A DNA stretch of 64,000 nucleotides from Amycolatopsis sp. 2-15 (GTDB taxonomy: Bacteria > Actinomycetota > Actinomycetes > Mycobacteriales > Pseudonocardiaceae). The position numbers and the translations under genes were made by a program. The notes beneath the pieces were generated by a model, which saw nothing but the letters and a program-made list of their open reading frames with translations, searched no databases and was not told the DNA's origin. Positions 40,146 to 63,335 of this stretch are shown here, piece by piece. Location of the stretch: contig NZ_CP127294.1 of the NCBI RefSeq assembly GCF_030285625.1, forward strand, positions 5,922,001-5,986,000. The letters run 5' to 3'. How positions within the stretch are numbered: the stretch's first letter is position 1; each line of letters begins with the position of its first letter.

Positions 40146-40163
40146 ATCAACGTAACAGTTGAC
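40146..40163. promoter_or_regulatory. Regulon palindrome A (reductase/P450)
   Basis: ATCAAC-GTAACA-GTTGAC, one mismatch from perfect GTCAAC-N6-GTTGAC. Lies five bases before the reductase GTG 40141 and 74 bases before the P450 ATG 40237, so one site could control both. Confidence 0.65.
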
Positions 40164-40236
40164 ACTGCTTGTGGCGAGTGCGAATGTAGGTGTGGGCGCG
40201 AGTCGACGACTACCTAGTACTTGAGGAGATGTCCCC

Positions 40237-41544
40237 ATGACGCAGGCCCCGAAGCCGGTGGAGGGTTCGCAGGACGTGGACGGTTCGCAGTGCCCGTTCG
40301 CGCGGGCCAGCACCATTCAGGACATTGCGAAGTTGCTGCGGTCCAGGACGGCTGTGACCCATGACCCGTATTTGTTCGCGAACTACAAGGAAGATCCGGT
40401 CAACGGCGAGATCAACGTCAGTGAGTTCCTCGGCGCCTCCATGATGTACGTCGAGGGCGAATCGCACCGGTTGCGGCGCAAACTGCTGAACCCGCTGGTC
40501 CGGGCCGACGCGCTTTCCGGAATCCGCGAGGACATCGTGTTGCCCGAGGCCGACCGGCTGCTCGCGCTGCGTCTCGCCGAGCCCGACGTCGACGGCAAGT
40601 ACCGGTTCGAGTTGGTCGAGTTCCTCGAGCGGGTCTTCATCCACTTCACAGCCAAGCTCATCGGCTTGATCGGTTTGGACACCGACGAGCGAATCGCTCG
40701 GATGGTCTCCTTCGCGGGCCCAATCGCCGCGGGGACCAGTTCCGGCTATCTCGAGGACCGCGACGCGGTAAACAAGCAGGCCCTGGAAGCCAAGGCGCGC
40801 TACGTCGAGGAGTTCTTCAAGCCGTCGTTGGAGTGGCACAAAGAGCAGCGTCGACGCATCGAGACCGGTGAGATCGCGGAGACAGACGTCCCGGACAGCC
40901 TGCTCAAGATGGCCGCCGCCGGCCTGGCTCCAGAGTGGACGGACGAGGACAAGCTGATCGTCGAATCGACGCTGCTGTTCGCCGCTTCGGTCGGTACCAG
41001 CACTCAGTCGATCATCCAAAGCATCGACCTGCTTCAGCGCTGGTTCGTCGACCACCCCGACGACCTCGAGCGCAAGACAAACTCGACTTTCCTGCTGCAC
41101 TCCCTGCAGGAGATCATCCGCATGCGAGCCCCGTTCGCGCCGTATCAGACCCGGCTGGCGCTGGAGGAGAACTCCCTCTCGGACGGCACGCCGATCCACC
41201 CGAACCAGGAACTGCACATTGAGTACGTCTTGGCCAACCGGGACACCGCGATCTTCGGCGACGACGCGAATGACTTCAACCCGAACCGGCCGACTCCGGC
41301 GGACGGCACCCCGCGTTACGGCGTGGGCTTCGGTCTCGGGGCGCACCAGTGCTATGGCCTGCGGGTGGTCGTCGGTAACGACGGCAACGGTGGCGCGCAC
41401 GTCGAGCTGCTGCGCAAGCTGATGGCTGTGGGCGTCCGCCCGGACCCGGACAACCCGCCGGTCGGCCTGAAGAAGGACATGAGCAAGTACTTGAGTGAGG
41501 ACATCCCCCGCTACGTCAAGTACTGGGTCGTCGTTGACCGCTGA
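40237..41544 (+). CDS. Cytochrome P450
   Basis: 435 residues, soluble class. Haem loop FGLGAHQCYGL with the thiolate Cys372; I-helix LLFAASVGTSTQSII with the acid-alcohol region as GTST; K-helix ExxR in LQEIIRMRAP. Unusually, the residues after the Cys are GLRVVVGNDGNGGAHVELLR instead of the common G-x2-LAR-x-E L-helix. ATG 40237 with GGAG upstream (40223). Electron donors are probably the divergent reductase and the ferredoxin at 61371. Followed by a clear terminator. Confidence 0.9.
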   Translation: MTQAPKPVEGSQDVDGSQCPFARASTIQDIAKLLRSRTAVTHDPYLFANYKEDPVNGEINVSEFLGASMMYVEGESHRLRRKLLNPLVRADALSGIREDIVLPEADRLLALRLAEPDVDGKYRFELVEFLERVFIHFTAKLIGLIGLDTDERIARMVSFAGPIAAGTSSGYLEDRDAVNKQALEAKARYVEEFFKPSLEWHKEQRRRIETGEIAETDVPDSLLKMAAAGLAPEWTDEDKLIVESTLLFAASVGTSTQSIIQSIDLLQRWFVDHPDDLERKTNSTFLLHSLQEIIRMRAPFAPYQTRLALEENSLSDGTPIHPNQELHIEYVLANRDTAIFGDDANDFNPNRPTPADGTPRYGVGFGLGAHQCYGLRVVVGNDGNGGAHVELLRKLMAVGVRPDPDNPPVGLKKDMSKYLSEDIPRYVKYWVVVDR

Positions 41545-41564
41545 GGCGAAGCACGGGCCGACGT

Positions 41565-41596
41565 CGAATGGGCCTCCCGGTTGGCAGGCCCATTCG
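41565..41596 (+). terminator. Hairpin terminator after the P450 gene
   Basis: CGAATGGGCCT (41565-41575) pairs perfectly with AGGCCCATTCG (41586-41596), 10-base loop, 21 bases after the P450 stop. Confidence 0.75.
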
Positions 41597-41670
41597 CACT
41601 GGGACCGGTGCGGTCGACCGGCCTGACACTCATCGTCGATTGCGGCAACTTCCCCGAGTAGGTGATTACG

Positions 41671-42999
41671 ATGTACCGGCTCGCGGTCACTGGCGACGTC
41701 ATCATGAACACGCGCGTGTCGGTGTGCCGAGAGCCGGAGGTCGTCGCGGCCCTCGACGTGTTGCGAGGCGCGGACGTCACGCACGCGCGCCTGGAGATCC
41801 CGCTGCACGACTTCGGTGCGGCGGACGTGTTCCCCGCCGCGGAAGGCGCGCTCAGCTGGATGCGCGGGCCGACGGCGATCGCGGACGAGTTGCGGGCGCT
41901 GGGCGTGGATCTCGTCTCCACGGCGTCGAATCACGCGCTCGACTACTCCTACGGCGGGCTGCGCTCCACGATCGAGGCGCTCGACGCACGCGGGCTCTCG
42001 CATGCCGGTACCGGCGCGGATCTCGCCACCGCGCGCGCACCCGCGTTCGCCGACACCGCCGCGGGACGCGTCGCGCTCGTGTCGGCGACCTCGTCGTTCC
42101 CCTCGTTCGCGCGGGCGGGCGCGGCAAGGACCGACGCGGTCGGGCGCCCGGGCGTGAACCCGTTGCGCTATCTCGATGTCGTCGGCCCGGCGACCGCCGA
42201 ACGGTTGTGCGCTGTCATGGGTGAGCTGGGCCTCTGGATCGTCCGTGACGGCGACGAGTTCGTCGTGCACCCGCCCGGCCTGCACAACTCCATCCGGCGG
42301 TTCCGGGTCGTGGCCGGCCAGGAGATCTCGTCCACGGTGTGCGATCCCGACGATCTCACCGGCAACCTCGAGTCGCTTCGTCACGCGGCTTCGGTCGCGG
42401 ATTTCGTCCTGGCGCACCTGCATGTCCAGGCCTGGGACGGTGCGGACGGGCGGATGTCGAGCACACCGGCGTTCGCTCGCGAATACGCCCACGCCGCCGT
42501 GGAGGCGGGGGCCGCGCTCGTCCTCGTCCAGGGTTCGCACGCGCCGATGCGCGGGATCGAGATGTACCAAGGCGTGCCGGTGCTCTACGACCCCGGCCCG
42601 CTGTTCCGGCTGGGCCGCCGCGAACCGCAGCCGCACGACTTCTACACCCGCTGGGGCAATGATCCCCGCGTCCGATCGTTCGACGCCGGACTGCTCGACG
42701 CATTCGGCGCGCGAGACACCACCATCAGCGGCAAGACCGTGCTCAGCCCGCTCGAGGGAAACGACCACCGGCCAGGGTTCGTCCTGCCGGTCTGCGAGGT
42801 CGACTCCGCCACGCACCGGGTGAGGGCGATCGACCTGCACCCGATGACGTGGAGCCGCGCGAGCCGAGCCTCGACGGGCTTCCCGGCCGTGGCGAGCGGG
42901 TCGAGCGGTCGTGCGGTGCTGGACCGGATGGCGGAGCTGAGCGAACCGCACGGAACGAAGATCACCGTCGACGGCGGGATCGGACGGATGGAGTTGTGA
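41671..42999 (+). CDS. CapA family protein (metallophosphatase fold)
   Basis: 442 residues from ATG 41671; GTG 41662 is the alternative. CapA/PgsA signatures: YRLAVTGDVIMNTR, VDLVSTASNHALDYSYGGLR, VLAHLHVQAWDG, VLVQGSHAPMRGIEMYQGV and VLYDPGPLFRLG. The fold is a calcineurin-like metal site. Despite the name, many such proteins have no link to poly-gamma-glutamate capsule. No signal peptide. Alone between the P450 terminator and the peptide ABC operon; probably part of the catabolic set as a hydrolase, which is inference. Confidence 0.85.
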   Translation: MYRLAVTGDVIMNTRVSVCREPEVVAALDVLRGADVTHARLEIPLHDFGAADVFPAAEGALSWMRGPTAIADELRALGVDLVSTASNHALDYSYGGLRSTIEALDARGLSHAGTGADLATARAPAFADTAAGRVALVSATSSFPSFARAGAARTDAVGRPGVNPLRYLDVVGPATAERLCAVMGELGLWIVRDGDEFVVHPPGLHNSIRRFRVVAGQEISSTVCDPDDLTGNLESLRHAASVADFVLAHLHVQAWDGADGRMSSTPAFAREYAHAAVEAGAALVLVQGSHAPMRGIEMYQGVPVLYDPGPLFRLGRREPQPHDFYTRWGNDPRVRSFDAGLLDAFGARDTTISGKTVLSPLEGNDHRPGFVLPVCEVDSATHRVRAIDLHPMTWSRASRASTGFPAVASGSSGRAVLDRMAELSEPHGTKITVDGGIGRMEL

Positions 43000-43239: not shown

Positions 43240-43280
43240 GTCAACGTCATCGTTAATTCTTGTCAACGCGAGTATTGACT
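43240..43280. promoter_or_regulatory. Regulon palindromes B (tandem) before the peptide ABC operon
   Basis: Two sites: TCAAC-GTCATC-GTTAA (43241-43256, imperfect) and GTCAAC-GCGAGT-ATTGAC (43262-43279, one mismatch). They lie 65-105 bases before GTG 43345. Centres are 21-22 bases apart, two helical turns, so cooperative binding is possible. Confidence 0.65.
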
Positions 43281-43344
43281 CGTGTGCCGTGGCCGGTTAC
43301 GGTTCTCGCCGTGATCTCGGCAGAGTGGCCGGGCAGAGCATTCG

Positions 43345-44310
43345 GTGGGTCGTGTGAACACTCGAACCAAGAATCTTCTCCGACGGATCTGGCCGGCGAT
43401 TCCGGTGCTCCTTCTCGTTCCGCTGGCGGCGACCGCGCTGACCGACCTCATGCCCGGCGACCCGGCGGTCGCGATTCTCGGGGACCGGGCGAGGCCGCAG
43501 GACATCGCCGCGGTCAACCAGCAGCTCGGGCTCGACCGGCCGCTGATCGTCCGCTACTTCGACTGGCTCGGGCACGCGCTCGGCGGTGACCTCGGCAAGT
43601 CAATCGGCAGCCGCGTTCCGGTGTGGCAGGAGATCACCCAACGGCTGCCGGTGACCTTTCAGCTGGCGGTCATGGCCCTGGTGTGCGCGGTGGTGGTCGC
43701 CGTTCCGCTGTCGATCTACACCGCGTCGCACCCGGGCCCGTTCGACCGGATCGCGACCGGAGTCTCCGCCGGAGTGATGTCCGTCCCGCCGTTCGTGGTC
43801 GCGGTCGTGCTGACCTACTTCGCCACCACGACGGGTGTTTTTCCGCCCCTCGGCTGGGTTCCGGTGTCGCAGGACGCGTACGAGAACCTGCGGCATGCCG
43901 TGCTGCCCGCGCTGGTGCTGGCTGTCGCCGAGATCCCGGTCTTCCACCGCCTGCTGCGTGCCGACATCGTGGCGACGTTGCAGGAGAACTTCATCCTCAA
44001 TGCGCGGGCACGCGGTCTGCCCCGCTGGTACATCCTGTTCCGGCACGCCCTGCGGCCGTCGCTGTTCTCGATTCTCACCGTGGCCGGGATTTCCTTCGGC
44101 CGGCTGCTGGGCGGCACGATCATCGTCGAGACCATCTTCTCGCTACCGGGACTCGGCGCACTCGCCGCGCAGTCGATCTACAGCAAGGACATCCCCACGA
44201 TTCAAGGCATCGTGGTTTTCGTCGCGTTGCTCTACATCGTCATCAACCTGCTGGTCGATCTCGCTTTCGGCATCCTCGACCCGCGTGTCGCAGCCGGGAG
44301 CCGGGCATGA
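43345..44310 (+). CDS. Oligopeptide/nickel-type ABC permease (DppB-like)
   Basis: 321 residues, six membrane segments. LIPLIPGDPA-like LTDLMPGDPAVAILGDRARP, LGHALGGDLGKSIGSRVPVW and the EAA-type loop ENFILNARARGLPRWYILFR. GTG 43345 or 43354. First gene of a five-gene ABC operon in which each gene overlaps or nearly touches the next. Class: peptide/opine/nickel uptake family, which also imports plant opines, glutathione and other modified compounds. Confidence 0.92.
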   Translation: MGRVNTRTKNLLRRIWPAIPVLLLVPLAATALTDLMPGDPAVAILGDRARPQDIAAVNQQLGLDRPLIVRYFDWLGHALGGDLGKSIGSRVPVWQEITQRLPVTFQLAVMALVCAVVVAVPLSIYTASHPGPFDRIATGVSAGVMSVPPFVVAVVLTYFATTTGVFPPLGWVPVSQDAYENLRHAVLPALVLAVAEIPVFHRLLRADIVATLQENFILNARARGLPRWYILFRHALRPSLFSILTVAGISFGRLLGGTIIVETIFSLPGLGALAAQSIYSKDIPTIQGIVVFVALLYIVINLLVDLAFGILDPRVAAGSRA

Positions 44311-45212
44311 CGAGATCAGAGAAAAGCATTGTCGCCTTGTCGGTTCCTTCGGTGGAGGCGGCCACCACCGCGCCGGACCGGGTGCGACGCCAACGCAAGC
44401 GGCGTCCGCGAGCCATCCTCGTGCTGGCGTCGTTCTGGCTGGGCATCGTCTTGTTCTTCGCGATCTTCGCCGGCGTCCTTCCACTGGCCAGCGTCGCGAC
44501 GCCCGTGGGCGACAGTGGACAGCTCCCGAGCCTGGGCGGGCAACTGCTCGGCACCGACGTCCTCGGCAGGAGCATCCTGTCCCGGCTGGCCTTCGGTGGC
44601 CGGATTTCGCTCGCCGTCGGCGTGATCGCGACGCTCGCAGGGCTCGCCGTGGGCTGCCTGCTCGGCCTGATCGCGGCCTACTTCAAAGGCGTTGTCGGCA
44701 CCGTGGTCGACATTCTCGCGAACACCGTGCTCGCAATTCCGCCCCTGGTGTTCCTACTCGCCATCGCGGCGGCGGTCAGGCCGAGCCTGCCGACGCTGGT
44801 GTTCAGCCTGGCATTGCTCAACATCCCGACGTTCGCGCGGCTGGCGAAGGCCAACGCGCTCGCCGTGATGACACGGGAGTACGTACTTGCCGCGCACGCG
44901 ATGGGCGCGAGCCACCGCCGGGTGCTGTTCCGCGAGGTCCTTCCCGGGCTGCTCCCGCCGGTACTGGCCTACGCGGTGGTCGTGATGGCGTCGATGATCG
45001 TCGCCGAAGGATCACTGAGCTTCCTCGGGCTTGGCGTACCGCCTCCAACGCCGAGCTGGGGAGGAATGATCGCGGGGGCGAAGAGCGATATCGCGTTCTC
45101 CCCGTGGCCGGTGTTTGCGCCGTGCCTCGCGATATTCCTCACCGTCTTCGCACTGAATGTCGTGGGCGACGGGCTGCAACGCCGGTTCGTGCTCAAGGAC
45201 TCCGCGCTGTAG
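44307..45212 (+). CDS. Oligopeptide/nickel-type ABC permease (DppC-like)
   Basis: 301 residues from ATG 44307 (ATGA overlap). Membrane segments begin at about residue 35; LLGTDVLGRSILSRLAFGGR, EYVLAAHAMGASHRRVLFRE and EGSLSFLGLGVPPPTPSWGG are DppC-typical. Pairs with the upstream permease. The longer frame from 43623 is a shadow. Confidence 0.93.
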   Translation: MTRSEKSIVALSVPSVEAATTAPDRVRRQRKRRPRAILVLASFWLGIVLFFAIFAGVLPLASVATPVGDSGQLPSLGGQLLGTDVLGRSILSRLAFGGRISLAVGVIATLAGLAVGCLLGLIAAYFKGVVGTVVDILANTVLAIPPLVFLLAIAAAVRPSLPTLVFSLALLNIPTFARLAKANALAVMTREYVLAAHAMGASHRRVLFREVLPGLLPPVLAYAVVVMASMIVAEGSLSFLGLGVPPPTPSWGGMIAGAKSDIAFSPWPVFAPCLAIFLTVFALNVVGDGLQRRFVLKDSAL

Positions 45213-45244
45213 CCACAAAGGACAGACGTCCGAAAAGAGGAACC

Positions 45245-46816
45245 ATGAGCAGAGCTTCGGCAGCAGTTCGTGTGCTCGCGGGAATCGCCGTCGGTGTCGT
45301 TTCGGCCGCGAGCATCACCGCGTGCGCCCCGTCCGCTGGAACGGGCGGGAACGGCCCCACCGGCGTCGCTGCGAACGGCGGTTCCATGACGTTCGTCGCG
45401 CAGTACGAGACGACCACCATGGACCCGCTCATCACCTACGTGCAGTCGACCAACGACACCTTCCGCACCCAAGCGATCTTCGACCTGCTCGCCTACACGG
45501 ACACGACCGGCAAGGTGGTGCCCCGCATCGCGGAGAGTATTACGCCGAATGCCGGCAAGACGGAGTGGACGATCAAGATCCGCCCCGGGGTGAAGTTCAG
45601 CGACGGCACGTCTTACGACGCGGCGGCGGTGAAGTTCACCATCGACCGTGACGCGGTCGAGGCGAACCACTCGACGCAGTACACCGCGGCGAAGGACCTC
45701 AAGACCACTGTGATCGATCCGCTGACCCTGAAGGTCACGCTGCCTTCGCCCAACGCGCAGTTCGACCAGGTCGTCTCCCAGAGCTTCTCGCTCGTGCCCT
45801 CACCGACCGCGGTGCAGAAGGAGGGCAAGGACTTCGGCCAGCACCCGGTGGGCGCCGGCCCGTTCGTCCTTCAGGAATGGGTCAAGGGCGACCACATGAG
45901 CTTCGCGCGCAACCCCCAATACTGGCAACGGGGTTTGCCGCATCTCGACTCGGTGACGCTGAAGGTCGTCGAGGACCCGCAGCAGGCCACGAACGTGCTG
46001 TTGTCCGGTGAGGCGCAGCTGTTCGAGGTGCAGCACACGAGCACGCTCGCCGCCGGCGAGAAGGCGGGCCTGCAGTCCGTGAAGACGGCGGTCAACGGTG
46101 GTGACGGGCTGTTCTTCAACACCCGGCGGGCGCCGTTCGACGACCGGCGCGCTCGGCAGGCCGTGGCCTACGCGCTGGATCTGAGCGAGCTGGCCAAGGT
46201 TGTCTACCACGGTCTCGTGCAGCCGCCGAAGAACCTGTTCGCCACCGATTCTCCCTATTACGACTCGAAGTACGACTACCCGGCGCCGGACAAGGCCAAG
46301 GCGCAGCAGCTGTTCGATCAGCTCGCGGTGGAGAGCAAGCGGGTCGACTTCACTTACGTCACGACGTCGGGTGCCGAGGACGTCAAGCTGGCCCAGTTCG
46401 TCCAGAGCAGGCTCGCGACCTTCCGCAACGTCACCATGAACATCGACACGCAGTCCGGTGCCGAGCGGATCCAGAGCTACCGCCAGAGCAACTTCCAGAT
46501 GACCACCGGCGCGACGTTCTTCCTCAACCCGTATCCGGTGACCCAGTCGACGTTCGCGACCGGCGGGGTGCTGAACTACCCGCTCTACTCCAACCCGGAC
46601 GTCGACGCGGCGCTCGCCGACGCGGTGACTACGACGGAGGAGAACCGGCGCAAGCGGGACTACGAGACCTTCCTCCAGCACTACGCCCACGACCTGCCGA
46701 CGCTGCCGACGCAGGCCACCGAACTCGGGGTGCTCTTCACCGACAAGGTGACCGGGGTGCAGACTTTCGAGCTCGGCTGCACGCCGTTCTGGGACCAGAT
46801 CGGCTACAAGCGGTGA
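45245..46816 (+). CDS. Peptide-type ABC substrate-binding lipoprotein (family 5)
   Basis: 523 residues. Signal peptide with lipobox ITAC, Cys27. Family 5 features: RIAESITPNAGKTEWTIKIR, PGVKFSDGTSYDAAAVKFTI, HPVGAGPFVLQEWVKGD and NTRRAPFDDRRARQAVAYAL. ATG 45245 preceded by AAAAGAGG. Binds the solute outside the membrane; overlaps the first ATPase gene by GTGA. Ligand not predictable. Confidence 0.94.
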   Translation: MSRASAAVRVLAGIAVGVVSAASITACAPSAGTGGNGPTGVAANGGSMTFVAQYETTTMDPLITYVQSTNDTFRTQAIFDLLAYTDTTGKVVPRIAESITPNAGKTEWTIKIRPGVKFSDGTSYDAAAVKFTIDRDAVEANHSTQYTAAKDLKTTVIDPLTLKVTLPSPNAQFDQVVSQSFSLVPSPTAVQKEGKDFGQHPVGAGPFVLQEWVKGDHMSFARNPQYWQRGLPHLDSVTLKVVEDPQQATNVLLSGEAQLFEVQHTSTLAAGEKAGLQSVKTAVNGGDGLFFNTRRAPFDDRRARQAVAYALDLSELAKVVYHGLVQPPKNLFATDSPYYDSKYDYPAPDKAKAQQLFDQLAVESKRVDFTYVTTSGAEDVKLAQFVQSRLATFRNVTMNIDTQSGAERIQSYRQSNFQMTTGATFFLNPYPVTQSTFATGGVLNYPLYSNPDVDAALADAVTTTEENRRKRDYETFLQHYAHDLPTLPTQATELGVLFTDKVTGVQTFELGCTPFWDQIGYKR

Positions 46817-47796
46817 GTGCGGACCTGCTCGAGATCGACGACCTGGGCTGTTCGCTGCCGGTGCGCGGGGAATGGCGTGCGGTGCTCGACGGCGTCTCGC
46901 TGTCGGTGGGCGCCGGCCGGACCATCGGCATCGTGGGCGAGTCCGGCTCGGGGAAGTCGATGCTGACCCGTGCCGTGCTCGGGCTCGCCCCGCCAGGGGC
47001 ACGGGTCACCGGGAGTGCACGGCTGGCGGGGGAGGACATCACCTCGCCGGGCCGCCACTTGCAGCGCCGCCTGCTCGGCACGCGGATGGCCGTGGTCTTT
47101 CAGGACCCGATGACCGCGCTGAACCCGGTGGTGCGCATCGGAAGGCAGCTGACCGAGCCGATGCGCTTCCACCTCGGTCTCGACCGCGCGGCGGCGCGGG
47201 CACGCGCGGTGGACCTGCTCGTCAAGGTCGGTATCCCCGACCCTGACCAGAAGTTGCGACAGTATCCGCACCAGCTGTCCGGCGGAATGCGCCAGCGGGT
47301 CACCATCGCGGCCGCGCTGTCCTGCGACCCCGAGATCCTGTTCGCCGACGAGGCCACCACCGCGCTCGACGTGACGGTGCAGAAGCAGATCCTCGACCTG
47401 CTGGGGGAAATCCAGCGGGAACGAGACATGGCGCTGGTGCTGATCAGCCACGACCTCGGTGTGATCGCCGGGCGCACCGACGACGTCTTCGTGATGTACG
47501 GCGGGCGGCTGGTGGAGCGTGCGCCGACCGAGCTGTTCTTCACCCGGCACCGGCATCGCTACAGCGCCGCGTTGGTCGAGTCGATCATCCGCCGCGATCA
47601 CCCGCGGCACGGCGAGTTCCGCACCATCCCGGGTGCGCCTCCGCTGCCGGGCGCCGTTGCCGGCTGCCCGTTCGGCCCGCGCTGCCTCGCGGTCGGCGAC
47701 GAATGCCGGGAGTCGACTCCGCCCCTGCGCCAGGACACCGGGAACTCCAGGCAGGCCCACCGCTGTATCCACCCCGTGAATGGTGACCTCAGATGA
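46813..47796 (+). CDS. ABC transporter ATPase (DppD-like)
   Basis: 327 residues from GTG 46813. Walker A GESGSGKSM, Q-loop VFQDPMTALNP, signature LSGGMRQRV, Walker B EILFADEATTALD and switch His in LISHDLGV. The C-terminal oligopeptide-transporter extension carries the Cys cluster CPFGPRC, CREST and HRCIHP, as expected for a [4Fe-4S]-type tail. Overlaps the next gene (ATGA). Confidence 0.94.
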   Translation: MSADLLEIDDLGCSLPVRGEWRAVLDGVSLSVGAGRTIGIVGESGSGKSMLTRAVLGLAPPGARVTGSARLAGEDITSPGRHLQRRLLGTRMAVVFQDPMTALNPVVRIGRQLTEPMRFHLGLDRAAARARAVDLLVKVGIPDPDQKLRQYPHQLSGGMRQRVTIAAALSCDPEILFADEATTALDVTVQKQILDLLGEIQRERDMALVLISHDLGVIAGRTDDVFVMYGGRLVERAPTELFFTRHRHRYSAALVESIIRRDHPRHGEFRTIPGAPPLPGAVAGCPFGPRCLAVGDECRESTPPLRQDTGNSRQAHRCIHPVNGDLR

Positions 47797-48773
47797 CGAC
47801 CGTGGAACATCTTCGCCCGGGCGCGCTGCTGAGCGCCGAGCATCTCGTCCAGCGGTTCAAGGTCCTGGACGGCGTGCTCGAGGCTGTCAGCGACGTGAGC
47901 TTCGATGTCGAGGAGGGGGAGACGCTCGGGCTCGTCGGCGAGTCGGGATGCGGCAAGTCGTCCACCGGGCGGGCGGTGCTGCAGCTGCCGAGGCCGACGT
48001 CCGGCACCGTGCGGTTCGCGGGCCACGACCTGACGCGCGCCGCCGACGCCGAGCTGCGTGACGTGCGCGCTAGGCTCCAGACGATCTTCCAGGACCCGAC
48101 GTCCGCGCTCAACCCGCGCCGGCGGGTGCGGGACATCGTCGGTGAGGGCCTGGTGATCCGCGGTGTCGATCGCGCCGAGATCGGGCGCCGCGTCGACGAG
48201 GCACTCGACCGAGTCGGTCTGGACCCCGCCACCGCCGGCGACCGGCGACCGCACGAATTCTCCGGCGGACAGTGCCAGCGCATCGCCATCGCGCGCGCGA
48301 TGGTGCTGCGGCCGCACCTGATCATCTGTGACGAACCGGTCGCGTCGCTCGACGTCTCGGTTCAGGGGCAGGTGCTCAACCTCCTGGAAAGCATGCGCGC
48401 CGACGACGGGCTGTCGCTGGTCTTCATCTCGCACGACCTGCACGTGGTGCGCGCGATCAGCGACCGGGTCGCGGTGATGTACCTCGGCAAGATCGTGGAG
48501 ATCGGCGAGGTCGGCTCCGTGCTGCGACGCCCACGCCACCACTACACCCGAACCCTGCTCGACGCACTGCACGAGGTGGACGGTTCGCGGTCCACCGTCC
48601 CGACTGCTGAAGGCCACACCGGCGAGGTTCCCTCGGCGCTGCGTCCGCCGTCCGGGTGCCGTTTCCGCACCCGCTGCGCGTACGCCGAAGCGAAATGCGC
48701 TACGGAGGAGCCGCCCCTGAGGCGGCTCGGTGAAGACCACTTCGTCGCTTGCCATTTCCCGGAAACCGAGTGA
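47793..48773 (+). CDS. ABC transporter ATPase (DppF-like)
   Basis: 326 residues from ATG 47793. Walker A GESGCGKSS, Q-loop IFQDPTSALNP, signature FSGGQCQRI, Walker B LIICDEPVASLD, and C-terminal GCRFRTRCAYAEAKC Cys cluster. Completes the five-gene importer. Followed by a strong terminator. Confidence 0.94.
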   Translation: MTTVEHLRPGALLSAEHLVQRFKVLDGVLEAVSDVSFDVEEGETLGLVGESGCGKSSTGRAVLQLPRPTSGTVRFAGHDLTRAADAELRDVRARLQTIFQDPTSALNPRRRVRDIVGEGLVIRGVDRAEIGRRVDEALDRVGLDPATAGDRRPHEFSGGQCQRIAIARAMVLRPHLIICDEPVASLDVSVQGQVLNLLESMRADDGLSLVFISHDLHVVRAISDRVAVMYLGKIVEIGEVGSVLRRPRHHYTRTLLDALHEVDGSRSTVPTAEGHTGEVPSALRPPSGCRFRTRCAYAEAKCATEEPPLRRLGEDHFVACHFPETE

Positions 48774-51765: not shown

Positions 51766-51796
51766 GGCAGTCACGGTACAAGCATGGAAAAGGTCA

Positions 51797-51859
51797 GTCA
51801 ACGCGCGTGTAGATAGCCTTGTGCGCACTGTCGCCGCAGGATGCAACACGAGTGTTGAC
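51797..51859. promoter_or_regulatory. Regulon palindromes C between CoA transferase and PrpD genes
   Basis: Two sites in the divergent promoter: GTCAAC-GCGCGT-GTAGAT (51797-51814, imperfect) near the CoA-transferase start, and GCAAC-ACGAGT-GTTGAC (51843-51859, one mismatch) 66 bases before the PrpD-like ATG 51925. Confidence 0.65.
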
Positions 51860-51924
51860 GCACTGGGAGGTGCGGACTAGCGTGCCTGATCACTGACGTG
51901 TGCCGGACGAGGCGAAGGAAGACC

Positions 51925-53304: not shown

Positions 53305-53864
53305 AGTGCGGTGGACTGCGAAGAAGGTGGTGCCGGGCTGGTGCGCTCGTTCGTGATCGGTGGTGGGGTGCCAGGTTGTGCCTTCCGGGTGCCGCTTCGG
53401 TTGTCGTGCGCGCCAGTCCGGTCAGTCGCCGTGATGTCGGGACCATCCCGCACGGCCCGTATCGCGCATTTGATCGCCGGTGCTCGTCTCCGGCGCCGAT
53501 GAGGACGATCCGGCCCGCAACAAGGGTGGCAAGGCCCCATCCCTTGCACTTGGCCGTGTCGGCCGAAGGCGTGCCACCCATTCGTCAACATCGGGGTTGA
53601 CGCAGGTCGGCGGGCCGCCTATTTTCACAAGGAGCGTTATCAGCCACGCGCCGCACACAACTCGTCCGGCGCCAACCGTCATGACGACTCGTTCTCACGG
53701 CACATGATCACCCGCGGACCGTCGATCACGGGAACTCGAAATGCGTCTGCAATTCGACCGAAAGATTGTAGTCAACGAGAAGTTGACTTTGTGAACACCA
53801 GAATTCAGCAGCCCGTTGAATCGGTGGCTCAGTGAGACCTCGTAAACCACACAACGACGTGAGG
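53305..53864. promoter_or_regulatory. Leader region of the RbsA/RbsC operon with regulon palindromes D
   Basis: 560 bp with no supported gene (no binding protein, although one would be expected here). Two palindromes: GTCAAC-ATCGGG-GTTGAC (53584-53601, perfect arms) and AGTCAAC-GAGAA-GTTGACT (53770-53788, perfect 7-bp arms but 5-base spacer), 264-281 and 77-95 bases before ATG 53865. Confidence 0.65.
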
Positions 53865-55487: not shown

Positions 55488-56500
55488 GCCGACTCGGTCT
55501 GGACCGCTTCAGCGCCCTCTACCTCGGCGCGATCTTCATCATCACGTTCGGCATCTGGACGCCGGACCTGTTCCTCACGATGTCGACCGTTCAGTCGATC
55601 GCCTCGGCCCAGGCCATCGTCGCGATCATGGCGATCGCCCTCATCGTGCCTCTCTCCGCCGGTGTTTTCGACCTCTCGATCGGTGCGGTCGTCAACCTCT
55701 CTGCGGTCATCGTGGCGATCCAGCAAGAGCGCAGCGGCTGGGGCATGTGGGAGTCGATTGCCCTGGCGGTCGGTGTCTCCGTGCTCGTCGGTGTGGTCAA
55801 CGCCTTCATCGTCGTGAAACTCCGGGTCGGCTCGTTCATCGCGACCCTCGGCACGGGGACCGTCATCGGCGCCGTCCAAGTGATCGTCTCGAACCAGACT
55901 CAGCCGCTGCCGCCGACTACCCCGGGCTGGGCCGAGCTCACCCAGACCGAGGTCGGCGGCTTCCAGGTGATCATCGTGTACTTGCTCGTGATCGCACTGT
56001 TCTTCTGGTGGCTCCTCGGCCACACCCCATTGGGCCGCAGGCTCTACGCCATCGGTGGTAATCCCGACGCGGCCCGGCTCTCGGGGGTCAAGGTCGAAAA
56101 CCACATCTGGTTCTCGCTGATCGTCTCCTCGGCGCTGTGTGGCGTCGCCGGGGTGCTGTACTGCTCGCTCTCCGGACCATCGCTGACCTTCGGCACGGCA
56201 CTGTTGCTTCCGGCCTTCGCGGCGGCGTTCCTCGGGTCGACCCAGCTCAAGCCGGGCCGGTTCAACATCTGGGGCACGGTGATCGCGGTGTACGTCCTGG
56301 CGATCGGCATCCAGGGCTTGCAGTACGTCACCGGCGTGCAGTGGCTGGGTGACATGTTCAACGGCATCTCGCTCATCGTGGCCGTCGGCTTCGCGTCGCT
56401 TTCCCCGCGGATCCGGGCCAGGCGCATCGAGCGGGCGGCGGTCGAGAACCGCCTCAAGGCCGCCGAGGACGAGCCGGCCGAGGAACTCGTCTCCGGCTGA
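55484..56500 (+). CDS. Sugar-type ABC permease (RbsC type)
   Basis: 338 residues from ATG 55484 (ATGA overlap). About eight to ten membrane segments; IALIVPLSAGVFDLSIGAVV and GHTPLGRRLYAIGGNPDAAR, AARLSGVKV are hallmarks of the RbsC/MglC family. The C-terminus is a charged cytosolic tail. Substrates of the family include pentoses, autoinducer-2, nucleosides and small aromatic or terpenoid acids in some actinobacteria. Confidence 0.93.
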   Translation: MSRLGLDRFSALYLGAIFIITFGIWTPDLFLTMSTVQSIASAQAIVAIMAIALIVPLSAGVFDLSIGAVVNLSAVIVAIQQERSGWGMWESIALAVGVSVLVGVVNAFIVVKLRVGSFIATLGTGTVIGAVQVIVSNQTQPLPPTTPGWAELTQTEVGGFQVIIVYLLVIALFFWWLLGHTPLGRRLYAIGGNPDAARLSGVKVENHIWFSLIVSSALCGVAGVLYCSLSGPSLTFGTALLLPAFAAAFLGSTQLKPGRFNIWGTVIAVYVLAIGIQGLQYVTGVQWLGDMFNGISLIVAVGFASLSPRIRARRIERAAVENRLKAAEDEPAEELVSG

Positions 56501-56543
56501 TCGGCCGATGCGGGGAGTCGGCTCACGTTCGAAGGGAACACCA

Positions 56544-57330: not shown

Positions 57331-57504
57331 CCGGTGGCTTTTCGCATCAGCGACCCGGCCTGACGTGCACGCTCGCTCCCGCTTCCCATCGATCACGTCT
57401 TCGACGTCGATGGTCGTGAGGTGGCGAGCTGTATTTCTGAGATCGATCTTCGGTTCCGCGGCACTCGCAGGTCGGGAACTGACGTCCATACCTGGGAGGC
57501 AACA

Positions 57505-58296
57505 ATGAGGTTCGTCTTGGTGCACGGCGCGGCGCACGGTGCGTGGTGCTGGGAACTGCTGATCCCCGAGCTGGTCAAGCTCGGTCACGAGGCCGTCGCA
57601 ATCGACCTGCCCGGCGCGGGAGAACGGAGTGGAGAACCCGCCTCGATCGCCGGCTACCGTGACGCGGTCATCGACATGATGGAGAGCGGGGATGTGCTTG
57701 TCGGACACTCGATGGGGTCTGCCGTAGTCGCCGTCGCCGCCGACGCCCGCCCGGATCTCGTCGGGCACCTGTGTTTGGTCGCCGGTCCGCTGCCGGTCGA
57801 GGGCAAGCCACTGTCGTACCAGTCCACGTCGCCGACCGTGGGCGGAACTGCCGCTGCGCAGGATGAGGAGGAGTCGGCCGCCGAGCGGTCCATGAAATTC
57901 ACCGAAGACGGTTTGGCCTTCTACTGGGACAAGGAGGGCGCGCGCGAGACCTTCTACGGTGACTGCGACGACGATATCGTCGATTGGGCCACTGCGAGAC
58001 TGACCCCGCAGCCCCTCGCGCCGGTGATCGAGCCGATTCAGCTGCCCAACCTGGCCGCCGCGGACCTGCCCCGCAGCTATGTGGTCTGCCTGCAGGACCG
58101 GTCGTTCCCGCCCCGCCCCTCCCGCCTGCAGGCACGCCGCCTGGGCGTGCAACCCCTGACGATCAACACATCGCACTCGCCCTTTCTGAGCCGTCCCGCA
58201 CTGTTCGCGGACCTGTTGGTGCGTGGGCTGGATACGCCCTCGCTGCGGCCGGCCTCCGTCGACGAGGACCCGTTTGCCGCCTCCGCCACGGGATGA
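57505..58296 (+). CDS. Alpha/beta hydrolase (EstC/methylesterase-like)
   Basis: 263 residues. RFVLVHGAAHGAWCWELLIP is the oxyanion HG motif typical of the plant-methylesterase/EstC group; nucleophile Ser in LVGHSMGSAV; catalytic His in INTSHSPFLSRP; a charged lid between. ATG 57505 follows GGGAGG. Overlaps the LLM oxidoreductase start. Likely cleaves an ester or lactone formed in the pathway, an inference from neighbours. Confidence 0.87.
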   Translation: MRFVLVHGAAHGAWCWELLIPELVKLGHEAVAIDLPGAGERSGEPASIAGYRDAVIDMMESGDVLVGHSMGSAVVAVAADARPDLVGHLCLVAGPLPVEGKPLSYQSTSPTVGGTAAAQDEEESAAERSMKFTEDGLAFYWDKEGARETFYGDCDDDIVDWATARLTPQPLAPVIEPIQLPNLAAADLPRSYVVCLQDRSFPPRPSRLQARRLGVQPLTINTSHSPFLSRPALFADLLVRGLDTPSLRPASVDEDPFAASATG

Positions 58297-59141
58297 AGGC
58301 GATGCGGTTCAGCGTGACGGTCGTGGCGACCGATGCCGGTCCACCGCTCGTGGACGTCGCGCGGGCGGTCGAGGAGCGCGGGCTGGACGGGTTGTGGCTG
58401 CCGGACCACACCCACATGCCGGTGTCGCGGAGCGTTCCGTATCCGACGGGCGGCGACCTGCCCGAGCGGTACAAACGCAACCTCGACCCGGTCACCGGCC
58501 TGGCGCTGGCAGCCGCCGTCACCCGGCGCATCAGGGTCGGAACGGGGGTGTTGCTGCCCGCGCAACGCGATCCGATGGTGACTGCGCGCGCCCTGGCCAC
58601 GCTCGACCAGCAGTCCGGGGGCCGCGTCGTGGTCGGCGCCGGCTACGGCTGGAACGTCGAGGAGATGGCCGACCACGGTGTGGATCCGGCGCGGCGGCGG
58701 TCCCGGACGCGGGAGCACGTCCTCGCCATGCGCCGGCTCTGGGAGGACGAAGTCGCTTCCTTCGCCGGGCCCCATGTTTCGTTCCGGCCCTCCTGGTCCT
58801 GGCCCAAGCCCGTTCAACGGCCGCTGCCCGTGCTCCTCGGCGGCAGTCCGTCGCGCACGCTGTGCAGCCACGTCGCCGAGTACGGCGACGGTTGGATCCC
58901 GCTCGGGCCGCGGGCGCTGGAGGAGGGCGTCGGCGCGGTGCGGGACGCGGTCGCGACCGCCGGGCGCGACCCTTCAGCGCTGGAGATCGTCCCGTTTCTG
59001 GGACCCGGCGTGTCGCAGCGGCGCTGGGATCGATGCGTGGCCGGCGGGGCGACGGAGCTGGCCGTGGACGTACCGCACGACGATTCGCTGTTCGACACAC
59101 TCGACGTTCTGGGCGATGCGGTCGCCGCCTGGCGGTTGTGA
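58293..59141 (+). CDS. LLM class (luciferase-like) F420/FMN-dependent oxidoreductase
   Basis: 282 residues from ATG 58293 (ATGA overlap). TIM-barrel LLM family: RAVEERGLDGLWLPDHTHMP, TGLALAAAVTRRIRVGTGVL, RDPMVTARALATLDQQSGGR and GAGYGWNVEEMADHGVDPAR. The GYGWN segment favours the F420-dependent TIGR03619-type group. Either a dehydrogenase/reductase or Baeyer-Villiger-type monooxygenase; sequence alone does not decide. Stop is 29 bases before palindrome E. Confidence 0.88.
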   Translation: MKAMRFSVTVVATDAGPPLVDVARAVEERGLDGLWLPDHTHMPVSRSVPYPTGGDLPERYKRNLDPVTGLALAAAVTRRIRVGTGVLLPAQRDPMVTARALATLDQQSGGRVVVGAGYGWNVEEMADHGVDPARRRSRTREHVLAMRRLWEDEVASFAGPHVSFRPSWSWPKPVQRPLPVLLGGSPSRTLCSHVAEYGDGWIPLGPRALEEGVGAVRDAVATAGRDPSALEIVPFLGPGVSQRRWDRCVAGGATELAVDVPHDDSLFDTLDVLGDAVAAWRL

Positions 59142-59169: not shown

Positions 59170-59189
59170 AGTCAACGTATATGTTGATT
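59170..59189 (+). promoter_or_regulatory. Regulon palindrome E overlapping the ribBA start region
   Basis: AGTCAAC-GTATAT-GTTGATT, one mismatch in the outer arm. It ends three bases before ATG 59192, so ribBA could have its own regulated promoter inside the operon and a very short or absent leader. Confidence 0.65.
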
Positions 59190-59191
59190 GC

Positions 59192-60475
59192 ATGGTCCAG
59201 GGAGACGACATCCAGGGTGTGGAGGCCGCGATCGCGGCAATCGCTCGCGGCGCGGTCGTCGTCGTCACCGACGATGACGACCGCGAGAACGAGGCAGATC
59301 TCGTCGTCGCAGCCGACGCGATGACCGTGGAGATCATGAACTTCATGGTCACCCACGGGCGGGGTCTGGTCTGCGCACCGATGGAAAGCCGCCGCCTGGA
59401 CGCCCTCGGCCTGCGGGACATGGTGCCCGAGGGCAATGACCCACTCGGCACGCGCTTCACCATCTCCGTGGATCTCGAGGTCCCCGGCAGCACCGGCATC
59501 AGCGCCGGGGACCGCTCGGCGACCGTCCGGGCGCTGGCCGACCACGCGACGACCGCGACCCAGCTGCGGACGCCAGGGCACATCTTCCCGTTGCGTTATG
59601 CCGAGGGAGGTGTCCTGGTTCGGCGGGGACACACCGAAGCCTCCGTCGACCTGGCCCGCCTCGCGGGCCGCGCGCCCGCGGCCGCCATCTGTGAGATCCT
59701 CGCCGACGACGGCACGACGCTCACCGGCTCGGCTGTCCGCGAGTTCGCCGCGAAACACGGGCTCGTCCTGGTCAGCATCGAACAACTCGCCGCTTACCGT
59801 CGCACGAACGAGCCTCTGCGGGTGGTCGAGCCGGAACAGTCTGTGCGCGGCTCCGTGAAGCGGGTCGTTGAGACCACCCTGCCGACCGAAACCGGCCTCT
59901 GGCGGGCCATCGGCTACCGCGACATGGTCACCGGAGCCGAGCACCTCGCGCTCGTCCTGGGCGACGTGGCGGCGCGGCAAGCTCCGCTCGTCCGGTTGCA
60001 CTCGGAGTGCCTCACCGGCGACGTCATCGGCTCGCTGCGCTGCGATTGCGGCCAGCAGCTGGAGAAATCGTTCCAGACGATCGCCCGCGAGGGCGCCGGC
60101 GTCGTGCTGTACATCGGCGGACACGAAGGCCGCGGGATCGGCTTGCTGAACAAGTTGCGCGCGTACGCGCTTCAGGATCGCGGCCGCGACACCGTCGACG
60201 CCAACCTGGAACTCGGCCTGTCCGCCGACTCGCGCACCTACGACCAGTCGATCGTCATACTGCAAGACCTCGGCCTGACCCGGGTGTGGCTGCTGACCAA
60301 CAACCCGGTCAAGATCGCCGCGCTGCAGGACGCGGGCATCGCGGTCGACGATGTCATCCCGTTGCGCATTCCGGCCACGCTGCACAGCGCGGCCTACCTG
60401 CTCGCGAAGGCCCGCCGCATGGGCCACCGGCTCGGCGATCTCGACGAGACCTACCCGCACCCTGCGTCACGGTAG
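59192..60475 (+). CDS. ribBA: Bifunctional DHBP synthase / GTP cyclohydrolase II (RibBA)
   Basis: 427 residues. RibB part at about 1-205: DDDDRENEADLV acidic loop, TGISAGDRSAT, RRGHTEASVDLARLAG. RibA part at about 215-427: LHSECLTGDVIGSLRCDCG zinc site, GHEGRGIGLLNKLRAY, GLTRVWLLTNNPVKI. Makes the two riboflavin precursors from ribulose-5-P and GTP. It is not next to ribE/ribH, so it looks like a pathway-dedicated extra copy boosting flavin supply for the LLM and flavoprotein enzymes. ATG 59192 directly follows palindrome E. Confidence 0.94.
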   Translation: MVQGDDIQGVEAAIAAIARGAVVVVTDDDDRENEADLVVAADAMTVEIMNFMVTHGRGLVCAPMESRRLDALGLRDMVPEGNDPLGTRFTISVDLEVPGSTGISAGDRSATVRALADHATTATQLRTPGHIFPLRYAEGGVLVRRGHTEASVDLARLAGRAPAAAICEILADDGTTLTGSAVREFAAKHGLVLVSIEQLAAYRRTNEPLRVVEPEQSVRGSVKRVVETTLPTETGLWRAIGYRDMVTGAEHLALVLGDVAARQAPLVRLHSECLTGDVIGSLRCDCGQQLEKSFQTIAREGAGVVLYIGGHEGRGIGLLNKLRAYALQDRGRDTVDANLELGLSADSRTYDQSIVILQDLGLTRVWLLTNNPVKIAALQDAGIAVDDVIPLRIPATLHSAAYLLAKARRMGHRLGDLDETYPHPASR

Positions 60476-61359: not shown

Positions 61360-61370
61360 GGCCGAGCGGC

Positions 61371-61718
61371 CTAGCCTTCGGCCTTGGATGGCAGGCCGGC
61401 GACGAATTCACTGTCGGCGCCCACCGGGCCCACACGCGCGGCCCCACCCGGGTTTCCGAGCGGCTCCGTCCTGCCCGCCAGGGGAAGCTGGAAGAACGCC
61501 GCGTTGCTCTCCAGCGCCGGCAGGAATTCGGCCGGCAGGTCGTCCTTGTGGTAGACGGCCTCCATCGGGCAGGCCGGCTCGCAGGCGCCACATTGGACGC
61601 ACTCGACGGGATTGATGTAGAGCGCGCGCTCACCCTCGTAGATGCAGTCGACCGGGCATTCCTCGATGCAGCTCTTGTCCATCACATCGGTGCACGGTTG
61701 CGCGATAACGTAGGTCAT
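61371..61718 (-). CDS. fdxA: 7Fe ferredoxin (3Fe-4S/4Fe-4S)
   Basis: 115 residues. N-terminal CTDVMDKSCIEECPVDC binds the [3Fe-4S] and part of the [4Fe-4S] centre, and CVQCGACEPACPMEA the rest, as in FdxA/FdxC of actinomycetes. The C-terminal HKDDLPAEFLPALESNAAFF helix region is typical. ATG 61718, 23 bases after the FprA stop, same strand: one reductase-ferredoxin operon. A natural electron donor for the P450 at 40237. Confidence 0.93.
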   Translation of the reverse strand: MTYVIAQPCTDVMDKSCIEECPVDCIYEGERALYINPVECVQCGACEPACPMEAVYHKDDLPAEFLPALESNAAFFQLPLAGRTEPLGNPGGAARVGPVGADSEFVAGLPSKAEG

Positions 61719-61741
61719 CCGGGAGAATCCCTCTCAGCTTG

Positions 61742-63097
61742 TCAGGGTTCGGTGGTTGCGCGCAGCGCGATGTCGTTGAGCGAGGCCCAGTCCGGGATCT
61801 TGCTGCGAACGCGCCCTTCGCTCGCCCCGCGGCCGAGCTCCGCTTCGTCGATCCGCCGCCAACCCGTGTAGTCGATCCACCGGGCCGATCCGGCCGCGAG
61901 CGCATCCTCGATCCGTCGTCCGGCGGGACGGTTCGAGTCTGTCTTGGCCAAGTCCTCCAGCAGCGCGGAGACGGTCTCGCGAGCGTCGGACTTGTTGGTG
62001 CCGATGACTCCCGTGGCGCCCCGCTTCACCCAACCGGCGACGTATTCACCCGGGAGCGGCGCACCCGTGCCGTCGACGATCCGACCGGCATCGTTGGGTA
62101 TCACCCCGGCGTCGTCGTCGAACGGCACGCCCGGGAGGGCGGCGCTGCGGTAGCCGACGGCCCGTACGACCAGCTGCACCGGAATCGTCTCGAATTCCCC
62201 GGTACCCGCGGCGGCTCCGGACCCGTCGACGGTGAGCCGCTCCAGGCGCAGGGCTTCGACGCGGGTGCGCCCGATGATCTCGACCGGTTTCCGGAAGAAG
62301 CGAAACTGCACCTTGCGCGCGTTCGCCCGTGGTGGCTGGGTACTCCATTTCTGCAGGACGTCGAGGTTGGCTCGGGCTCGGCGGTCCAGACCCGGTTCAT
62401 CGGCGCCCGCCAGATCGGCGGGGCGGACGACGCGGTCGATCTCGGTGACCACGTCGAGCTCGCGGAGTTCCTTGCTGGCGAACTTCGCGTGCTCGGGACC
62501 GCGACGACCGATGACGTGCACCTCGCGGGCCCGGTTCTCACCCAGCCGGGCGAGCACGGGCACCGGGACGTCGGTGCGGGCGAGGTGTTCGCAGGGCCTG
62601 ACCAGGATCCGGCTGACGTCCAGCGCGACGTTTCCCGCACCGATCACGGCCACCGATTCGCCGTCGAGCGAGTGTCCGCGTTCGAAGTCGGGATGGCCGT
62701 TGTACCAGGAGACGAACTCGGTGGCCGAGATGCTCCCGAGCAGGTCCTCTCCCGGGATGCCCAGGCGGCGGTCGATCTGCGCACCCGTCGTGTAGACCAC
62801 GGCGTCGTAGCACTCGAGCAGATCTTCACGAAGAACGTCTCGGCCGAACTCGATTGCGCCGATGAACCGGATCCGCGGGTGCTCCAGGATCCCTTGGAGT
62901 GTGTGGATGACCGACTTGATGGTGGGATGGTCGGGTGCGACCCCGTAGCGAACCAGCCCGTACGGAGTGGGCAGTCTCTCGATCAGGTCGACATCGACGG
63001 CGACGTCGGCCTGGCCCACGAGTGCATCGGCGGCGAAGAGGCCGGCCGGTCCTGCACCGACAACCGCCACGCGGACCGGGCGGGTACTCGCAGTCAT
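61742..63097 (-). CDS. fprA: NADPH-ferredoxin reductase (FprA-like)
   Basis: 451 residues from ATG 63097. FAD motif VRVAVVGAGPAGLFAADALV, adrenodoxin-reductase-type RLPTPYGLVRYGVAPDHPTI, NADPH motif VAVIGAGNVALDVSRIL, VIGRRGPEHAKF, and C-terminal GWVKRGATGVIGTNKSDARE. Length equals M. tuberculosis FprA (456). The open frame extending to 63337 is not used; it crosses palindrome F. Delivers NADPH electrons to the 7Fe ferredoxin. Confidence 0.93.
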   Translation of the reverse strand: MTASTRPVRVAVVGAGPAGLFAADALVGQADVAVDVDLIERLPTPYGLVRYGVAPDHPTIKSVIHTLQGILEHPRIRFIGAIEFGRDVLREDLLECYDAVVYTTGAQIDRRLGIPGEDLLGSISATEFVSWYNGHPDFERGHSLDGESVAVIGAGNVALDVSRILVRPCEHLARTDVPVPVLARLGENRAREVHVIGRRGPEHAKFASKELRELDVVTEIDRVVRPADLAGADEPGLDRRARANLDVLQKWSTQPPRANARKVQFRFFRKPVEIIGRTRVEALRLERLTVDGSGAAAGTGEFETIPVQLVVRAVGYRSAALPGVPFDDDAGVIPNDAGRIVDGTGAPLPGEYVAGWVKRGATGVIGTNKSDARETVSALLEDLAKTDSNRPAGRRIEDALAAGSARWIDYTGWRRIDEAELGRGASEGRVRSKIPDWASLNDIALRATTEP

Positions 63098-63104
63098 TCG
63101 ATTC

Positions 63105-63290
63105 TCACTTTGCTGTCTGGGTTTCGTTCTCGACCGCGAACTCGTACGAGGCTTCGATTTCGCCGATCCGCCGAGGGGACGTGGTCGGCGTGGCGGATTT
63201 CGAGCCAGCCGCCACACCACGATCGACGCCGGGCTCGGTCGCCGGCGTCCGCTCGCCCGAGAGAAAGTGTTCATTCCGATCGAACACCAC
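63105..63290 (-). CDS. Possible small ORF upstream of fprA
   Basis: A 61-residue frame from GTG 63290 ending seven bases before the fprA ATG: VVFDRNEHFLSGERTPATEP to IGEIEASYEFAVENETQTAK. The acidic C-terminal part looks protein-like, and its position between palindrome F and fprA fits a leader gene, but there is no clear Shine-Dalgarno and no family. It could simply be a long 5' leader. Confidence 0.3.
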   Translation of the reverse strand: MVFDRNEHFLSGERTPATEPGVDRGVAAGSKSATPTTSPRRIGEIEASYEFAVENETQTAK

Positions 63291-63317
63291 CTGAGCGTAT
63301 TTGTGCGATCCGACTCT

Positions 63318-63335
63318 GTCAACCTGAGTGTTGAC
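63318..63335. promoter_or_regulatory. Regulon palindrome F upstream of the fprA-ferredoxin operon
   Basis: GTCAAC-CTGAGT-GTTGAC with perfect arms, extended to 7 bp each by T and A. It lies 221 bases before the fprA ATG and downstream of the enoyl-CoA hydratase gene. Confidence 0.7.

Follow-up and report, generated by a model that had tools for sequence, protein, structure and literature searches.

In a 64,000-nucleotide stretch of the Amycolatopsis sp. 2-15 genome (NZ_CP127294.1, positions 5,922,001 to 5,986,000, contig C1 of genome G000; hereafter the window), the 18-bp palindrome GTCAAC-N6-GTTGAC recurs in promoter regions of putative catabolic genes. The site is real, concentrated in one gene cluster, located near gene starts, kept before orthologous genes, and present beside TetR relatives across phyla. 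We propose, at a probability of about 0.87, that an autoregulated repressor of the TetR family, TetR1, uses it as operator to silence a 52-kb cluster for acyl-coenzyme A (acyl-CoA) catabolism, as its paralogue TetR2 probably does too. An initial annotation of the window had suggested a shared operator of a catabolic regulon, and the neighbouring sequence supports this suggestion. Positions to the right of the window continue its numbering (ext, genome position minus 5,922,000).

All nine near-identical palindromes of the initial annotation were found in the sequence, seven fitting the N6 form with 0-2 mismatches, and the sites at 53584 and 63318 are its two perfect N6 copies. Two were adjusted: the stretch 43241-43256 forms the centre of a longer 18-mer (43240-43257), and the palindrome placed at 53770-53788 has a 5-base spacer between perfect arms (53771-53787). 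A palindromic position weight matrix (PWM) trained on 13 sites was scanned over 123 kb, comprising the window and rightward DNA. Seventeen sites scored at least 17.2 bits, 8 within the window and 9 beyond it, and all fell in ext 40146-92567 (52 kb); the next best match scored 14.6. No site of this strength was detected in 1-40.1 kb or in 92.6-123 kb, consistent with the earlier statement that none was seen before genes in 1-39 kb. Leave-one-out scores were 17.3-25.4. In DNA simulated with matched dinucleotide content (2.46 Mb), 4 matches reached at least 17, corresponding to ~0.2 per 123 kb. With the chosen gene starts none of the 17 sites touches a gene, although the region is 88.6% coding; with longer starts, five (40146, 51797, 71597, 79445 and 79487) would overlap the 5' end of an open reading frame (ORF). 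Such statements depend on the starts chosen, several of which (FdR, the first peptide ABC gene and the CoA-transferase) were inferred. The palindrome at 53771-53787 and those at 67214 (spacer 4) and 83514 (spacer 5, within the PBP4 frame) were excluded from the 17.

Genome-wide and genus-wide counts were obtained by pattern searches, and PWM scans were applied to fetched stretches. The perfect palindrome occurs four times in the genome (10.05 Mb, a single contig), and all four copies lie in the cluster. Copies with one mismatch number 20; six of them, three within the window, lie in the cluster, which represents 0.5% of the genome. Among 80 Amycolatopsis genomes, our genome, G343 and G222 contain four perfect copies each, and the other 77 contain 34 in total (0-3 each). 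The perfect motif is therefore not equally dense elsewhere, the possibility against which the initial annotation had wished its proposal to be checked. At three or fewer mismatches the window has 64 matches (24.6 expected); many of these are of a coding type, such as GTCGAC, and inflate the count, which was therefore not used as the main statistic.

The initial annotation expected the regulator just beyond 64 kb or elsewhere, and advised looking for a gene, possibly of the TetR type, preceded by the same motif. Such a gene, TetR1, was found 13.8 kb past the window end (C1:5,999,766-6,000,407, minus strand), with a copy of the motif 12 bp upstream of its ATG. A 62% paralogue, TetR2, lies at C1:6,006,556-6,007,233. 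Both proteins have the TetR fold, scoring 46.6 (TetR1) and 54.1 bits (TetR2) for the TetR_N domain (curated cut-off 24), and the top C-terminal family match was TetR_C_24. A palindromic site is thus present upstream of TetR1 as well as at 16 other positions near candidate target genes of the cluster.

We then compared four genomes carrying the cluster or parts of it, namely our own, G343 of the same genus (selected for its four clustered perfect sites), Amycolatopsis sp. GM8 (G273, assigned to another genus in the genome set) and Mycolicibacterium sp. CBMA 234 (L086). TetR1 was matched at E <= 1e-30 in 16 of 297 family genomes, our own included. G343 matches 40 of the 45 cluster proteins in the same, inverted order, those without a listed match being abH, ECHx, APH, LLM3 and ECH3, the last of which lies in the ECH-RibF ORF described below. 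G273 carries both TetR genes, and 29 of the 45 proteins find their best match at 93-141 kb of its contig C1 in changed order; its sites of at least 17 bits are confined to 87-136 kb of the 140 kb examined. FRed, RibF and the peptide ABC genes found no counterpart in this stretch. Sites common to all three genomes precede FdR/P450, CoA-transferase/PrpD1, LLM2, 4HBCT/ACS2, TetR1, AmH1/LLM4 and AmH2. In alignments of eight promoter regions the arms were kept in most, the TetR1 site being the weakest match, and the flanks were still similar between our genome and G343 and mostly diverged in G273 and L086. Conservation before orthologous genes, a further check proposed in the initial annotation, was thus observed in G343 and G273. 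The cluster is only partly present in L086, where 20.6 kb hold 11 sites of at least 15 bits, none directly before its TetR1. Its site at 15344, whose centre is the reverse complement of that of our ribBA site, was considered as a ribBA promoter and rejected, as no RibBA was found there; the comparison of RibBA promoters is therefore confined to our genome and G343.

To follow the TetR protein independently of the motif, we used 15 aligned TetR proteins as query and collected 79 loci (113 stretches were confirmed, of which the best 80 were retained). These loci, mostly from Actinomycetota and Proteobacteria, are not independent, as two come from GM8 and some are near-duplicates. The relaxed palindrome [AG]T[CT][AT]AC-N6-GT[AT][AG]A[CT] was present in 69 of them, with ~0 expected from three shuffles of each, including loci of Pseudomonas hunanensis, Pseudoduganella, Sphingomonas, Novosphingobium, Paracoccus, Rhodococcus, Nocardioides and Cryobacterium. 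Among ~61,000 palindrome types (all six-base arms, spacers 0-14), GTCAAC-N6 ranked first, with 91 copies in 52 of the 79 loci. The same arms gave one copy each at spacers 5 and 13 and none at the remaining 12, and 179 other arms of the same letters averaged 0.061. The neighbouring genes in these loci are acyl-CoA genes, with matches at E <= 1e-20 to the cluster's ACAD in 32 loci, ACS1 in 30, ECH2 in 30 and SDR2 in 28.

A plasmid search with LLM4 selected a further locus independently of both motif and TetR. It returned 214 records, of which the best was followed, pSH1 of Sphingobium xenophagum (LLM4 61.5%). The locus contains two TetR genes, one of which was compared and is 39% identical to TetR1, together with two luciferase-like monooxygenases (LLMs), ribB, a flavin reductase, dodecin, a P450 and acyl-CoA genes. 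Five sites of 21.8-25.5 bits were detected, one 50 bp before the compared TetR gene and another between an adenylate-forming enzyme and LLM4.

Alignment of the recognition helix in 78 loci (L091 was dropped) showed the sequence DRAA in six TetR relatives and RAS, RAT or similar in the others; residue 59 of TetR1 itself is Ser. The six DRAA loci (L093, L094, L097, L098, L100 and L111) have three to six TT half sites each, of the GTTTAC type, and among the other 72 loci such a half site was found once, in L108. A Ser/Thr to Ala change in the recognition helix accompanies the change of half site, and we regard this correlation between protein and DNA sequences as suggestive only. The DRAA relatives (38-43% identical to TetR1) adjoin LLM4 relatives (62-64%), and their sites have drifted to RTYTAC-N6-GTARAY. 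In A. saalfeldensis (G188) and in G299, such TetR genes occur in pairs ~5 kb apart.

The position of the palindrome relative to promoter elements suggests how it might act. At 59 sites of at least 17 bits in the four cluster genomes, the pattern TANNNT follows the TTGACN of an arm ten times at 17 bp and ten times at 18 bp, and 0-2 times at each other spacing. Across the 79 loci, 146 RTCAAC-N6-GTTGAY palindromes read in both directions gave 37 occurrences at 17 bp, 16 at 18 bp and 0-6 elsewhere. This excess indicates that an operator arm can double as a -35 box, making repression by occlusion likely. At ext 87677 both arms can serve as -35 boxes, for the divergent promoters of FRed and AmH2, an arrangement kept in G343. 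We propose that a TetR dimer would bind the palindrome and mask the -35 box supplied by the GTTGAC arm (or the -10 box at ribBA), leaving RNA polymerase unable to start. The repressor would be released by an intermediate of the pathway, most likely a CoA thioester by analogy with the relatives KstR2, AibR and FadR discussed below. Induction would then raise the enzymes of acyl-CoA metabolism, the transporters, the P450 chain and the luciferase-like enzymes along with the extra ribBA, ribF and flavin reductase genes, and through this joint induction flavin supply would rise alongside the enzymes that require it.

Several observations weigh against this reading. The relaxed palindrome was not found in 10 of the 79 loci (L089, L090, L091, L131, L133, L144, L150, L152, L157 and L161), three of which hold some of the closest relatives of TetR1: L089 and L090 (55%) have imperfect sites only (15.2 bits in the former, 18.2 and 15.2 bits in the latter), and L091 (72%, with a split reading frame) has no site of at least 15 bits. 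Our RbsA, ECH2, PBP4 and FprA sites have no counterpart in G343, nor has the ALDH site in G273. TANNNT occurs at 16-19 bp in only 18 of the 59 sites and in 7 of our 17. CT half sites are less specific than TT half sites, being present in 11 of the 72 non-DRAA loci and twice in our own cluster, and since the six DRAA proteins belong to a single clade (support 0.994), the covariation of helix and motif counts as one event. In our genome no site directly precedes TetR2, and either paralogue could be the acting one.

It may also be that another regulator reads the palindrome and that the TetR genes are bystanders in the cluster. The perfect palindrome does occur on a G222 contig, where 13 sites reach at least 15 bits, and six further Amycolatopsis genomes, G354 among them, have it as a close pair; the stretches examined around the G222 and G354 copies contain no cluster homologue. 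Some 1 kb from the pair in G354 is a TetR gene with a different type of C-terminal domain. Other proteins may read similar arms. A bystander role is nevertheless very improbable, as the palindrome is enriched across phyla in loci chosen solely by TetR sequence, the recognition-helix variant accompanies a motif variant, and TetR1 has a site before its own start. An activating or dual role of TetR1 would fit sites that lie far upstream without a recognisable -10 box, such as ext 82519, ~158 bp before PBP4. We consider this role unlikely, though a little less so than the bystander one, since most characterised TetR proteins are repressors and blocking fits both the -10 box at 17-18 bp in 7 of our 17 sites and the short distances to the starts of ribBA (3 bp), TetR1 (12 bp) and FdR (17 bp). 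Finally, the element could be a strong -35 box (TTGAC) with incidental symmetry, given that the arm supplies TTGACN with an excess of -10-like hexamers at 17-18 bp. However, both arms are kept at a fixed spacer (91 copies at N6 and 2 over 14 other spacers), 41 of the 59 sites lack TANNNT at 16-19 bp on either side, and the second arm persists in several G273 and L086 promoter alignments despite diverged flanks, which leaves this account hardly credible. Repression by TetR1, and probably TetR2, is thus the reading that we carry forward.

We compared the predicted pair with known systems. KstR2 is the TetR regulator of the lower cholesterol pathway in Mycobacterium and Rhodococcus; its consensus operator, AnCAAGnnCTTGnT, has no match in the 123 kb, and the KstR-type pattern matched once, at 7184, outside the cluster. 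PfmR of Thermus thermophilus (3vpr) shows 31% identity. The acyl-CoA-binding regulators AibR and Bacillus FadR share the fold and perhaps the ligand class, at 20-23% identity. EdcR of Caenibius tardaugens is reported to be a TetR repressor in a catabolic cluster for estradiol, and its operator, TnnCnnTACnAnTnGTAnnGnnA, overlaps a promoter box (PMC8700777). TetR1 shares the cluster location and, by prediction, this overlap; EdcR differs in its operator, which has no match in the 123 kb, and in its C-terminal family, TetR_C_11 instead of TetR_C_24. Mycobacterial BkaR is reported to be a TetR repressor whose own gene and target genes are preceded by a conserved palindrome (PMC3920632), as predicted here for TetR1; its 16-bp core, GTTAnT-N4-AnTAAC, is also without a match in the 123 kb. 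FadP is the TetR regulator of fatty-acid degradation in Burkholderiales (PMC5343134). A literature search with the motif in five spellings yielded no paper with this operator, and none of the few papers listed by narrower searches dealt with it, judging by title and opening of the abstract, most subscription papers and motifs given only in figures being out of reach. TetR1 thus appears to be a TetR-family repressor with an operator not found in print, and its novelty is not proven.

Taken together, these results lead us to a wider proposal, which we hold at slightly better than even odds. A TetR subfamily of Actinomycetota and Alpha-, Beta- and Gammaproteobacteria would keep one 18-bp operator, GTCAAC-N6-GTTGAC, whose arms are usable as back-to-back -35 boxes, and a Ser/Thr to Ala substitution would switch it towards GTTTAC or GTCTAC. 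One branch would co-regulate luciferase-type oxygenases and dedicated synthesis of riboflavin, flavin mononucleotide and flavin adenine dinucleotide (FAD), the catabolic inducer thus commanding cofactor supply. Unannotated palindromes would then become a predicted regulator-operator pair, readable in genomes of several classes and usable to delimit catabolic pathways of unassigned substrate, with one residue on offer as a specificity position. Control of ribBA and ribF by a catabolic repressor would also explain extra flavin-synthesis genes in catabolic islands.

The cluster reaches ~30 kb past the window and comprises ~45 genes. The initial annotation's estimate of about 18 linked genes is thus an undercount if operons are followed, although not every gene has a site of its own. 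The genes encode a family III CoA-transferase, two acyl-CoA synthetases, ACAD, a thiolase, crotonases and SDRs. Two PrpD-type proteins, an Ltp-type thiolase with a ChsH2-like OB protein, two amidohydrolase-2 proteins and ALDH are also encoded, as are two ATP-binding cassette (ABC) importers, a P450, a ferredoxin reductase, a Rieske ferredoxin, a flavin reductase and five luciferase-like oxidoreductases. A ferredoxin beside fprA, reported in the initial annotation, was not found, Pfam giving only Pyr_redox-type domains there. The assignment of genes to sites follows gene order and is putative.

The cluster ribBA and ribF are extra copies, since three other full-length RibBA copies (57, 54 and 51%) and a 54% RibF copy exist elsewhere in the genome. 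Relatives of RibBA were present in 9 of the 79 loci, of flavin reductase in 15 and of RibF in 4, and RibBA is 90% identical in G343 and 50% in GM8. The flavin genes are not uniform, since RibF and flavin reductase found no match in the GM8 stretch, nor did RibBA and RibF in the Mycolicibacterium locus, and LLM3 and LLM5 score above the NCBIfam cut-offs for F420 subfamilies; both points tell against coordinated flavin supply. LLM3 has no site of its own. A 593-amino-acid ORF at ext 80716-82494 (genome 6002716-6004494) encodes an enoyl-CoA hydratase together with a domain of RibF, the FAD synthetase, without an intervening stop. It is also present in G343 with a similar linker, and GM8 and L086 have the hydratase without a RibF match. 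The ORF may represent a fusion, although the linker contains GTG codons at which translation could start internally.

PDB searches with the P450 (51 rows, best 1.5e-7), LLM4, LLM2, ACS1, AmH1 and Ltp indicated no clear substrate. A weak lead comes from the matches of AmH2 to the diterpenoid enzymes PtmU3 (7e-35) and DitZ (2.5e-23). When AmH2 was searched against proteins, 3887 of 7996 scored candidates matched at E <= 1e-60, and among the matches listed names were mostly generic or absent. As a weak guess, the substrate may be an alicyclic or terpenoid-like acid.

Table 1. Putative operators and neighbouring genes, in window coordinates unless marked ext
Feature	Position	Strand	Remarks
FdR, ferredoxin reductase (Pyr_redox_2 + Reductase_C)	38996..40128	-	start inferred; 81% in G343, 71% in G273
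Putative operator	40146..40163		17 bp from inferred FdR start (-), 73 bp from P450 start (+); kept in G343, G273
Cytochrome P450	40237..41544	+	89% in G343, 75% in G273
PGA_cap-family protein	41671..42999	+	
Putative operator before peptide-type ABC operon	43240..43257		two mismatches; G343 has two sites at same place
Putative operator before peptide-type ABC operon	43262..43279		arm usable as -35 box
-10-like TACGGT	43298..43303	+	17 bp past TTGACT of operator arm (43262 site)
Peptide-type ABC operon: two permeases, SBP_bac_5, two ATPases	43356..48773	+	first start inferred; present in G343
Family III CoA-transferase gene	49202..51766	-	two matched stretches, apparent frameshift near 51.3 kb; start inferred
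Putative operator	51797..51814		30 bp before inferred CoA-transferase start; -10-like TACCGT 51773-51778, - strand
Putative operator	51842..51859		65 bp before PrpD1; -10-like TAGCGT 51878-51883, + strand
PrpD1, MmgE/PrpD-family protein	51925..53304	+	
Putative perfect operator before RbsA-type ABC operon	53584..53601		-10-like TATTTT 53620-53625
Operator-like palindrome	53771..53787		perfect arms, 5-base spacer; 44 bp before RbsA
RbsA-type ATPase + RbsC-type permease	53832..56500	+	
LLM1, luciferase-like monooxygenase	58293..59141	+	
Putative operator	59171..59188		ends 3 bp before ribBA start codon; centre may be read as -10 TATGTT 59181-59186
RibBA (DHBP synthase + GTP cyclohydrolase II)	59192..60475	+	
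FprA-like pyridine nucleotide-disulphide oxidoreductase	61742..63097	-	
Putative perfect operator	63318..63335		220 bp before FprA-like gene; -10-like TACGCT 63294-63299, - strand; no counterpart at G343 gene
Nine sites beyond the window	ext 67271, 71597, 74834, 78420, 79445, 79487, 82519, 87677, 92550		PWM scan

Two genes in the window are interrupted. The CoA-transferase frame (49202-51766), broken near 51.3 kb, is a single ORF in G343, pointing to a sequencing error or a real frameshift, and an SDR gene at 56283-57277 is divided between two frames. No counterpart of this split SDR or of the alpha/beta hydrolase at 57421-58296 was seen between RbsC and LLM1 in G343.

The G222 sites lie on contig C2 (L169-L170, 92.5 kb), are of the type GTCAAYRYGYRYRTTGAC, and extend over ~15 kb among mostly unidirectional ORFs without cluster homologues. 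Six of these ORFs were scanned, of which three had no Pfam match and the rest gave DUF3560, a weak methyltransferase and an HTH_17 protein. These sites probably belong to a different system with similar arms. In G354 (L171:8080-8125) the two perfect palindromes are ~10 bp apart at the start of a 308-amino-acid ORF without a Pfam match, ~1.3 kb from thymidylate synthase, and the TetR gene ~1 kb away is of the BetI type. Similar pairs were observed in G321, G323, G334, G288 and G009.

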